NCBI GenBank assembly: GCA_027622715.1
Contig: JAQBYN010000007.1
Coordinates: forward strand, 1 to 64,000
DNA: 64,000 bases
Origin: Pseudomonadota bacterium
Lineage (GTDB): Bacteria; Pseudomonadota; Alphaproteobacteria; SHVP01
Direction of reading: 5' to 3'
The notes beneath the pieces were generated by a model. It made no database searches. It saw only the letters and a program-made list of their open reading frames with translations, and was not told the origin of the DNA. Position 1 is the stretch's first letter, and the number at the start of each line of letters is the position of its first letter. A program made the translations under genes and the position numbers. Positions 6,168-10,466 of this stretch are shown here, piece after piece.

Positions 6168-6280
6168 GGACTTAGTGACTATTGTTTCGCGTGGAAGATC
6201 AAAGTCGCCTATAAATATATCGCTAGTCGACCGGGCGTCTTCGGACGTTTACTTCAGGGTTGCCGGGGGGCGGATTTTCA

Positions 6281-7642
6281 GTGCGATTTATCTCCAAACA
6301 CGCTTTTGAGAGGGCAGCCCGGCTGTCTGCCGCATTGCTCTTCGGACTCAGCCTTTCGTGGGGCGCAATCGCCCAGCAAGCGGGCGATTCGGCTGAACTC
6401 GACAAAGCCTACGATGCAGCGTTTCAAGAGTTGTTCCAGGATCCGGGTAATCTCGACAAGTCGTTCCGGTTCGCCGAGCTAGCCGTCCAAAAAGGCAATT
6501 TCGAAGCCGCCATTAGCGCGCTCGAACGCATGCTTCTGATCAATCCCGATCTGCCGCGGGTGCGCCTCGAACTGGGCGTGCTGTATTTCCGCATCGGCTC
6601 GTATGCGATCGCCCGAACCTATCTGACACGCGTCGCCCAGACCGAGGACGCACCGCAAGAGGTCAAAGACCGCGTGCAGGTGTTCCTGGCTGAGATCGAC
6701 AGCCGCCTTACTCGCGGGAGCCTGAGTGGCTCGGTCTTTATTGGCGCGCGGTACTCCGATAACGCGAACTCCGGACCGAACAGCCCGAATGTTTTGGCGA
6801 ACGGCGTGGCTGCGACGCTCGGCGATCAATTTACCAACAAGTCCGACCGCAACTACTTCATCTCCGCGCAGGTTAATCACAGCTACGATTTACTGACCCA
6901 GCGCAACGAGATCATCGAGAGTTCGGGCTCGCTTTACGCGTCCGAGCAGGACAAGCAGAAGCAGCTCGATATCGTCTTTTTCGAGGGCCAAACCGGTATC
7001 CGTGGCCCGTTCGTTCAAAAGCTCGTGCCGGGCGGCTCGTTCAAGCCCTACGTGCTGGGCAACATGGTCTACCTGCAGGACACTTGGTATCAGTTTTCGG
7101 TTGGTTTCGGCGCCAATGTCGTGCTGCCGTTTACCCAGCGTCTGAGGGCGACGATCAACCTCGAGAGCAAATCCGAGCACTTCCGGAACGATTCGGAGCG
7201 ACCCAATGCCTCGCAGCAAAGCGGCGTCGAAGGATCGCTGCGAGCCGACGCAACCTACGCGCTGACGGACACGCAGCAGGTTGGGCTGCGGGCCTCAGCG
7301 ACCAGCCAGGAAGCCAAAGAAAAATTCAATGCGTTTCGCCAATTTCAAATCGGTGGAAGCTTTACCCAGCTGGTTGCGATCAAGGCGCTGGAGTCGGGAC
7401 CGGCAAGCGTTAGCGCGAATATCTCGCGCAGTATGAGCCACTACAACGCGCCGAATCCGACGGTCGACGCAAACCGCAAACGGCAGGATCAAGAATGGCG
7501 CTGGTCGGTCACCAGCGCGGTGCCGGTGACGCCGGATTGGACCATCGTCACGACGTTCCAGCGCTCGACGATCGATAGCAGCTTGCCGAATTTCGAAAAC
7601 CACTCGGCCGCGATCACCTTTGGTGCGTCGCGCCGTTTCTAA
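6281..7642 (+). CDS. TPR plus outer-membrane beta-barrel protein, Slam/DUF560-like
   Basis: About 453 aa. A signal peptide (ending near AIAQ) is followed by an N-terminal helical region with TPR-like repeats (SFRFAELAVQKGNFEAAISA, then LELGVLYFRIGSYAIARTYL). After SLSGSVFIGARYSDN comes a long C-terminal stretch of alternating strands ending in Phe (FGASRRF), the signature of an outer-membrane beta-barrel. TPR plus C-terminal barrel of roughly this length is the architecture of surface lipoprotein assembly modulators (Slam, type XI secretion). Only 19 bp separate it from the FecR/TbpB-like gene, its probable cargo. The GTG at 6281 places the signal peptide at the N-terminus; a TTG seven codons upstream is possible. 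Slam identity is by architecture only. Confidence 0.7.
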   Translation: MRFISKHAFERAARLSAALLFGLSLSWGAIAQQAGDSAELDKAYDAAFQELFQDPGNLDKSFRFAELAVQKGNFEAAISALERMLLINPDLPRVRLELGVLYFRIGSYAIARTYLTRVAQTEDAPQEVKDRVQVFLAEIDSRLTRGSLSGSVFIGARYSDNANSGPNSPNVLANGVAATLGDQFTNKSDRNYFISAQVNHSYDLLTQRNEIIESSGSLYASEQDKQKQLDIVFFEGQTGIRGPFVQKLVPGGSFKPYVLGNMVYLQDTWYQFSVGFGANVVLPFTQRLRATINLESKSEHFRNDSERPNASQQSGVEGSLRADATYALTDTQQVGLRASATSQEAKEKFNAFRQFQIGGSFTQLVAIKALESGPASVSANISRSMSHYNAPNPTVDANRKRQDQEWRWSVTSAVPVTPDWTIVTTFQRSTIDSSLPNFENHSAAITFGASRRF

Positions 7643-7661
7643 TAACCGATGGGAGTTCACC

Positions 7662-10466
7662 GTGGGTAGCAACGCGAAACTTGGCTTGGCGGCACTTTCA
7701 GTATTCCTGCTGGCGCACACCGCAGGCGCACTGGCCCAAACGCGTAGCGACATCGGGGTCGCCGCGGCGGTGAACCCGCAGGCGGAGGGTACCCCTGCGG
7801 ACGGTGAGACCCGCACGCTTCGCGTCGGCGTCAATGTCCAATCGAATGAACGCATCGTCACCGCTGAAGGCGGCCAAGCGCAGATGCTGTTCATCGACGA
7901 GAGCACGTTTACCATCGGCCCCAACTCCGATGTGGTGCTGGACGAATTTGTGTTTGACCCCGACACCGGCACCGGGCGGATCGCGCTGACAGCGACCAAG
8001 GGCGTGTTTCGCATGGTCGGCGGCAAAATCAGCAAGCGGACGCCCGTGACGTTGAAAACACCCACTGCCGTGATCGGTATTCGTGGCGGTATTGCGCTGG
8101 TCAACGTCGCAGCCAACGGCTCGACCCAGGCAACATTTTTGTTCGGCGACGCGATGACGGTCGGCACAGCCGGCGGCAACCTGTCGGTCACGCGGCCGGG
8201 CTTTTCGGTAACGGCAGCAAGCGCCAGCGCACCGCCGTCCAATCCCGTGCAGGCAACCGGCGATCAGTTAAGTGCGTCGTTGGGCACGCTGGAAGGCAGC
8301 GCGCCACCGGCAGACGAAGGTGGCGGTGAGTCGGCTGGCGGTGGGCAAGTACCGACCAACCAGAATGTCGCGGCGTCAAATATCGGTGCTCTGGGATCGA
8401 ATAGCGCCCCGAACGCGCTTGGCGCGGCGGCGCCGCCGCCGCCGCCGGTAGGGGGCGGTCAAACCGGCGAACAGACTGGTCAAGCAGCGGGCAGACAGGC
8501 GCAGCAAAACAACACGCTGCAGAGTAGCGACAATCTCGGGTTTAGCATTTCCCGCAACTTCGTCGGACGCATCACGCATGCGACGCGGCTCGCCGGATCG
8601 ACCTCATCGACTTTGACCTTCGGTCTCGACCGGCCGCAGGGCAGTCTGGATAAACCGTTCCAAACGTCTTCGGTGTCGGGTATTGTCCGACGAAAGGACG
8701 CTGGTGCCCGTCAAGGTGCCGGGGTGTTTTCCGCGAATTTGGGCTCGTCCGGCTTCTTTAGGGCGCCGTTGGCCGCAGGGACCAAAACCGGCATCAGCGC
8801 GACGAGCCAACCGTTTGGCAGTGGCACCTTGACGGGCACCAGCGTCCTTTCGTCGGACAATCAATTCATTCTCTACGAACTCACCGATCAGGCCGACAAT
8901 CATAGGGTCTTGGCGTTCGCCGGGATCCCGACGACGACATTTCCGACCACCGGTGCGACCTTCTATAAAGCCCGCGACGACTTCATCTTGGGGTCGAGGG
9001 TGGTGGGCCTGCCGGCCGCTGACGGTGGTAACCTCGCTGTTACGTCATCCGATACAAACGCGGCAATCTACTGGAATACATCGTTGTCGACGACAGCACA
9101 GCGGCCCTTCGCAGCTATCTTGGGCGGCGTGGTGGGCACCGGCGCATCGCAACAAATGGCTTTTTCGTTGTTTGTCGGGCAGGTCAAAACGGACACGACC
9201 GGGACGGTGATCGAGGGCAATTTCGGTGGCTTTTCGTATCTCACCGGGGACGGCGCCTCGCCAAGGCTGTTTGACGGCCGATTCGAGAGCGCTTGCAACT
9301 GCGACAACACCATCGCGACCGAGACGGAGTACGATTTCTATGGCACCAACGCTGCCCACTTCATCATATCGAGCGGCGATCTTCCCAACACCAGCACGCT
9401 GTCCCCGTTCGAGCGTTTCCGCGGAGTCGAAACGGTCCAAAAGTACAACCCGGCGATCAACTTCAACGCCGCGACGGACACCCTGACGACGCGTAGCGCG
9501 CACCTGGCGTCGAACACCGGGGTCACCTTCAACCGACAGCTCACCGGTTTCGTTGCCGGTGTCGGCGCCTCCATCGTCCAGTCCGGCGGCGCCGTGACGC
9601 CCTTCACGTTCAATAGCCGTCTCGTCGACCCCAACGGGGTCAAGATTCAAACCGACCCCAATACCAACAAGATCACCTCGACGTTCGATATGGTCAAATC
9701 GAACGGCGGCAGCGATGTGCTTTTTGTCACGATGGGCGACAAGGACACCCGGTTCGGCACTTCGCCCGCGACCAGCGGCAAAAGCGCTTTCTTCGATGAT
9801 GAAACATTTGCTTCGACAGTGGACTGTGATGGCACGACCGCCTGTACGGGCGTTGCAACCTTTAACGGTGGTCCCGCGCAAGACGGCATTGTCACGATGG
9901 TCACCACCGACGACATTAGGGGACTGACCGGTACGTATGCCAATTGCACCTATTGCAGCTGGGGCCTGATCCGCGGCGAAATCGCGCCCTCATCGCCGCT
10001 GACGTTCGAACGGTTCACCGGTTTCTGGACCGCCGGGGCGGTGCAGGACCTAGCGCAGATTCCCGCGACCGGCACGGCAACCTACGGCGGGCATATGGTG
10101 GCGTTCGTCAACAATAACGGCGCACAGTATATCGAACATGGCAACACGTCGGTCAGCGTGAACTTTGCGGGCTCGGGCACCAACGGCACGATGACCGTCA
10201 GCAATTTCGACGGCGGCGGGTTCACGAGTACATTCAGCGCGGTCACGGCGACGTCGCCAGGCCACGTGTTTACTGGGTCGATGACCGGCACGGGTGCATT
10301 GTCCTCAGTGACGGGCTCTATGGCCGGATCCTTCTTCACCAACGCTGCGGGTCAAGCGGTCGCGGGCATGGGCGGCAAGGTCTTCGGCTATGGCACCGTG
10401 GGCGGCAACGCCTACCGCTTTGGCGGCATTCATTTGGAAACCTGCACCACCGGCGCCTGCCAATAG
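7662..10466 (+). CDS. secreted FecR-domain protein with TbpB-like C-terminal barrel
   Basis: 934 aa. A cleavable signal peptide without lipobox (about residues 1-26) precedes a FecR domain at about 48-155, with IALTATKGVFRMVGGKI and TPTAVIGIRGG. A Gly/Ala/Pro-rich linker follows, including a run of five Pro encoded by a GCC-type repeat. A long Ser/Thr/Gly-rich middle leads to a C-terminal region resembling the TbpB beta-barrel (TATYGGHMVAF, then GSMAGSFFTNAAGQAVAGMG and GGKVFGYG). There are no sigma/anti-sigma partners, so FecR here is probably a ligand or surface domain. GTG start with GGGAG box, 19 bp after the Slam-like gene. Absence of a lipobox fits an unlipidated secreted cargo. Codons 341-353 and 388-400 form a perfect inverted repeat. 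Confidence 0.75.
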   Translation: MGSNAKLGLAALSVFLLAHTAGALAQTRSDIGVAAAVNPQAEGTPADGETRTLRVGVNVQSNERIVTAEGGQAQMLFIDESTFTIGPNSDVVLDEFVFDPDTGTGRIALTATKGVFRMVGGKISKRTPVTLKTPTAVIGIRGGIALVNVAANGSTQATFLFGDAMTVGTAGGNLSVTRPGFSVTAASASAPPSNPVQATGDQLSASLGTLEGSAPPADEGGGESAGGGQVPTNQNVAASNIGALGSNSAPNALGAAAPPPPPVGGGQTGEQTGQAAGRQAQQNNTLQSSDNLGFSISRNFVGRITHATRLAGSTSSTLTFGLDRPQGSLDKPFQTSSVSGIVRRKDAGARQGAGVFSANLGSSGFFRAPLAAGTKTGISATSQPFGSGTLTGTSVLSSDNQFILYELTDQADNHRVLAFAGIPTTTFPTTGATFYKARDDFILGSRVVGLPAADGGNLAVTSSDTNAAIYWNTSLSTTAQRPFAAILGGVVGTGASQQMAFSLFVGQVKTDTTGTVIEGNFGGFSYLTGDGASPRLFDGRFESACNCDNTIATETEYDFYGTNAAHFIISSGDLPNTSTLSPFERFRGVETVQKYNPAINFNAATDTLTTRSAHLASNTGVTFNRQLTGFVAGVGASIVQSGGAVTPFTFNSRLVDPNGVKIQTDPNTNKITSTFDMVKSNGGSDVLFVTMGDKDTRFGTSPATSGKSAFFDDETFASTVDCDGTTACTGVATFNGGPAQDGIVTMVTTDDIRGLTGTYANCTYCSWGLIRGEIAPSSPLTFERFTGFWTAGAVQDLAQIPATGTATYGGHMVAFVNNNGAQYIEHGNTSVSVNFAGSGTNGTMTVSNFDGGGFTSTFSAVTATSPGHVFTGSMTGTGALSSVTGSMAGSFFTNAAGQAVAGMGGKVFGYGTVGGNAYRFGGIHLETCTTGACQ
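8682..8861. repeat. perfect 39-bp inverted repeat within the FecR-domain gene
   Basis: Arm 1 (8682-8720) and arm 2 (8823-8861) are exact reverse complements over all 39 bases; the bases on either side do not match. The interior is 102 bp. Both arms are 13 whole codons in the gene's phase and the interior is 34 whole codons, so inversion between the arms would keep the gene open. The alternative interior contains no stop. Such perfection implies recent origin, gene conversion or active inversion. Confidence 0.95.

Follow-up and report, generated by a model that had tools for sequence, protein, structure and literature searches.

A gene in the window (the whole stretch of 64,000 nucleotides that was analysed) contains a long, perfect inverted repeat, both arms of which are protein-coding. 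This raises the question of whether the repeat frames a segment that can be flipped to vary a protein, or is the trace of a mutation. The initial annotation proposed a phase-variable segment in a secreted or surface protein, a single template-switch event in which arm 1 was copied from arm 2, or an assembly artefact.

The inverted repeat and its host gene

Arm 1 (8682–8720, + strand) and arm 2 (8823–8861, + strand) are complementary at 39/39 positions, with 102 bp between them. Both lie within the open reading frame at 7656–10466 (+), in codon phase 0. The sequence check thus confirmed the exact arms, the whole-codon phase and the 34-codon interior described in the initial annotation. A perfect 39-bp repeat within about 500 bp is expected about 2e-14 times by chance in the whole 3.15-Mb genome, which bears out the earlier view that a chance origin is negligible.

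The repeat is also exceptional within its own genome. Repeat scans covered 932 kb, sampled as stretches and amounting to about 30% of the genome, and found no other perfect inverted repeat longer than 15 bp with a span below 500 bp; the second-longest is 15 bp, and the maximum in a Markov control was 14. A scan for imperfect repeats in the same stretches found nothing comparable elsewhere. The next imperfect match is a G/C-rich repeat cluster on another contig (C38, L120:4334-4885), which combines a 45-bp direct repeat (98%) with a 37-nt inverted repeat that is 81% complementary. This cluster, with its direct 45-bp copies, is not a comparable repeat. A genome search with the arm's first 23 bases, allowing up to three mismatches, matched only the two arms, and the arm is therefore not a dispersed element.

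The host gene is intact and encodes a protein of 936 residues, identified from its reading frame, its Pfam match and its relatives as a probably secreted FecR-domain protein; a location on the cell surface is plausible. The FecR domain (PF04773, E 1.3e-8) occupies residues 66–164, and the protein also contains β domains. Arm 1 encodes IVRRKDAGARQGA (residues 343–355), the spacer (8721–8822, + strand) encodes residues 356–389, and arm 2 encodes GTLTGTSVLSSDN (residues 390–402). Structure prediction for the whole protein was poor (mean pLDDT 38.6), and the structural reading rests instead on a local domain model (AlphaFold, 14 sequences, mean pLDDT 76, pTM 0.72). In this model the insert is a loop, predicted with lower confidence, and a strand adjoins it on either side. 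The 13 residues of arm 1 are therefore predicted to extend the turn of a β-hairpin. The spacer, which belongs to a conserved domain, encodes three predicted β-strands.

It is worth adding some observations on the surroundings of the gene. It is directly preceded by a gene for a TPR protein (6260–7642), which has a TPR_Slam-like match below the cut-off (E 0.0015), and in four distant genomes (L067-L070, 34–38% identity) relatives of this TPR protein adjoin FecR homologues. The β domains of the FecR protein are weakly similar to the β-barrels of NHBA and TbpB (5o1r, Foldseek E 0.037; profile 6cuj, E 0.09). There are hints here, to be taken as a lead only, of a pair resembling the Slam/type 11 secretion system, with a FecR-containing cargo. 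The same genome also encodes at least two paralogues of the FecR/β protein, on contigs C51 and C64 (L095 and L091), which are 61–62% identical to it in their N-terminal parts. In the alignment, both paralogues lack the 13-residue insertion.

Homologues identify the derived arm

The relatives available for comparison are a sister species and more distant relatives, with no conspecific genome among the scanned contigs. The orthologue in the sister species (G002/L005) has 70–73% amino acid identity to the host protein, and approximates the state of the gene before the insertion event. The initial annotation had suggested comparing relatives for the presence of arm 1: an alignment of 18 homologues and paralogues, including the sister orthologue, was made, together with a cleaner subset of 14 sequences, and the 13 residues of arm 1 are absent from 18/18. 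The impression that the product of arm 1, with its RRKD, looks out of place agrees with this. In close homologues both arm 2 and the spacer are clearly represented, and in the orientation that they have here. In a few remote homologues the length at the insertion spot varies in other ways, by shorter stretches unrelated to arm 1.

In the alignment of the DNA, the sister gene reads TCGGTTTCGGG followed immediately by CGGCACG, and the window reads TCGGTGTCGGG, then 39 nt, then CGGGGTG. The insertion relative to the sister gene is clean: nothing is lost at its flanks, the flanks are colinear, and the spacer has the same length and orientation in both genes. Of the inserted block, 38 nt are an exact inverted copy of the sequence 102 bp downstream. 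The block may alternatively be placed at 8681–8719, as one extra T plus 38 copied nt, which leaves an ambiguity of 1 nt at the junction. When two syntenic blocks were scanned for indels, the window proved to have three insertions of at least 6 bp, and only that of arm 1 has a nearby inverted source. Taken together, the absence from homologues and the clean insertion with an inverted source mean that arm 1 is derived and that arm 2 is its source.

The arms also carry some information on timing. Arm 2 differs from its sister counterpart at 7/39 positions, whereas arms 1 and 2 are identical, so the two species had probably long separated when the copying took place, unless homogenisation has made the arms alike since. 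With a divergence of about 30% between the sister gene and this one at the DNA level, any small flanking changes made at the time of the event are beyond reconstruction.

Origin of arm 1

On the basis of these observations, we consider it very likely that arm 1 arose recently, as an inverted and lineage-specific duplication, through one short-range template switch during DNA replication. The insert is the reverse complement of a nearby tract, exact over 38–39 of its 39 nt; the outgroups (the 18 homologues, and the sister gene at the DNA level) lack the insert and have the source and the flanks; and a single local event with two switches, and no other rearrangement, accounts for the difference. 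The one-off template switch from arm 2 to arm 1 suggested earlier is therefore strongly supported by the 0/18 homologues with arm 1 and by the clean insertion relative to the sister gene.

The replication mechanism that we infer would run as follows. While the gene was being copied, the nascent strand would have detached near 8681/8720 and copied about 38–39 nt of the arm 2 sequence, either by folding back on itself across a loop of about 102 nt or by using the opposite parental strand as template. Both geometries fit, and the sequence does not discriminate between them. The strand would then have returned to its original template, leaving a 39-bp insertion. Because this insertion is a multiple of three and free of stop codons, the gene stayed open, gaining 13 residues that lie in the predicted β-hairpin turn and are probably tolerated there. 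An antisense 39-mer taken from the host gene would stay open at the insertion site 75% of the time. Two features count against a template switch. A 102-nt loop and a 38–39-nt tract are long for classical bacterial quasipalindrome events, and, unlike in those events, the junction shows at most 1 nt of microhomology and no trace of an earlier imperfect repeat, for the sister gene has nothing that matches arm 1 where the insertion lies. The second feature rules out classical quasipalindrome correction itself.

An intragenic inverton, in which the 34-codon core is turned round by recombination at the arms, from a Gly/Ser/Phe-rich to an Arg-rich form, and the protein thereby becomes phase-variable, would agree with the long perfect arms, with the whole-codon geometry and with a frame that is open both ways, and intragenic invertons are a known kind of element (Chanin et al. 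2024, cited in PMC11868660). We nevertheless regard it as very improbable. Arm 1 is a recent copy that is missing from every relative examined, and there is therefore no conserved inversion system; among the 18 aligned homologues, none has a flipped segment or shares the arms. The arm has no further copy in the genome. The spacer is in its ancestral orientation and, because it encodes three predicted strands, a flip would probably wreck the domain. The earlier description of an invertible in-frame core was correct in that the flipped spacer keeps the reading frame open, with an interior that would read TAKRLARRADAGFGPCGQRRPKEAGRAQIRGKHP, Arg-rich and with one Cys. The openness is unremarkable, since in this GC-rich gene the in-phase antisense frame is usually open: it is so in 74% of stretches of 34 codons and in 58% of stretches of 60 codons. 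Nor is there an obvious enzyme. No serine recombinase (PF00239) or IS110-type DEDD recombinase (PF01548) was detected in the genome, in searches whose positive controls worked, and the five tyrosine recombinase genes (PF00589) are all on contigs other than the host contig C43, which agrees with the earlier remark that no recombinase gene is nearby. Nothing therefore points to the arm pair acting as a genetic switch, and the proposal of a phase-variable segment finds no support in the ancestral orientation of the spacer, its predicted strands or the recombinases of the genome. A related and scarcely more probable idea is that the new perfect arms let the core flip at a low rate, which would make the locus an intragenic phase switch in the making; the flips may come from another template switch, from recombination that does not need recA, or from a tyrosine recombinase that acts in trans.

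The remaining alternatives deny that arm 1 exists in the cell, or give it another origin or role. Chimeric hairpin reads made during library preparation or amplification may have been built into the contig; strand-displacement amplification is described as yielding chimeric by-products (PMC9484634), and the assembly is a draft in 86 contigs. Such an artefact would have had to be exactly 39 bp long, in frame and free of stop codons, for which the chance is about 1/3 × 0.75, and to land at a predicted β-hairpin turn. Amplification chimeras would also be expected to recur, but there is no second such repeat in 932 kb of the assembly, and the locus lies 8.7 kb inside a 116-kb contig rather than at its end. 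The assembly artefact raised earlier is accordingly disfavoured, and we regard it as unlikely. Selection of a long mRNA hairpin, as a regulatory or RNase III site, would make arm 1 an adaptive RNA feature. The transcript is computed to form a perfect 39-bp stem with a 102-nt loop (8682–8861, + strand), and the 221-nt region around it folds very stably (−125.7 kcal/mol, z −9.85), but this stability follows automatically from an inverted copy. The hairpin is absent from all relatives, so that no compensatory changes are available, and an Rfam search of the window matched no family, which rules out a known RNA element; a selected hairpin is thus a very doubtful reading. The least credible proposal, and an extremely improbable one, is that a small mobile element of the Rickettsia palindromic-element type entered the gene. 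An alphaproteobacterial relative does have an in-frame insertion of a repeat unit in a protein gene, as the title of its record states (L001), but here the inserted piece copies adjacent gene sequence and has zero other genomic copies at up to three mismatches. A dispersed or mobile palindrome should occur in multiple copies, and the genome-wide search gave the two arms only.

Comparison with known systems and significance

A template-switch origin for arm 1 has clear precedents. In the four-point model of template switching (PMC7954356, PMC8794818), as here, a nearby tract is inserted as its reverse complement, and the result is a perfect repeat and a longer sequence. In great-ape genomes a single switch usually lengthens the sequence and leaves one inverted repeat behind (65% of events); the copied tract has a median length of 12 nt and is at most 128 nt long (PMC7954356). 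Perfect stems that were formed when template switching inserted a long tract are also on record (PMC8794818). The present case differs from those of apes in that about 38–39 nt were copied, in frame, within a bacterial coding gene. Template switching is also the established bacterial mechanism at quasipalindromes, and in the thyA and lacZ quasipalindrome reporters of E. coli a local switch likewise leaves a perfect inverted repeat (PMC7202029); those events perfect an existing imperfect repeat, whereas here arm 1 is new over its full length and the loop spans 102 nt. Protein innovation by template switching in yeast similarly changes coding sequence in frame (PMC8604942), but there it involves homogenisation of arms or short spacer inversions affecting at most five residues, and here an insertion of 13.

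Two further systems resemble the locus in form. Intragenic invertons (Chanin et al. 2024, cited in PMC11868660) share the arrangement of inverted repeats flanking a segment within an open reading frame; in the present gene the arms are not conserved, no recombinase was found nearby and there is no evidence of inversion. The coding palindromes of Nematomorpha mitochondria (PMC6649704) are also long, perfect inverted repeats inside protein genes. They are numerous, and both of their arms encode conserved protein, whereas here there is one event and arm 1 is new sequence.

The insertion of arm 1 is most likely a further instance of a known mutational class, with an ordinary origin. If the core does prove to flip, a template-switch accident would just have created an intragenic phase switch. 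As it stands, the gene provides a clean bacterial case in which a template switch has apparently added protein sequence, in frame, from the antisense strand of the gene itself. It also illustrates that, in a gene rich in GC, a core that looks invertible without loss of frame can be a mere by-product of mutation, which calls for caution in screens for invertons that rest on inverted repeats alone.
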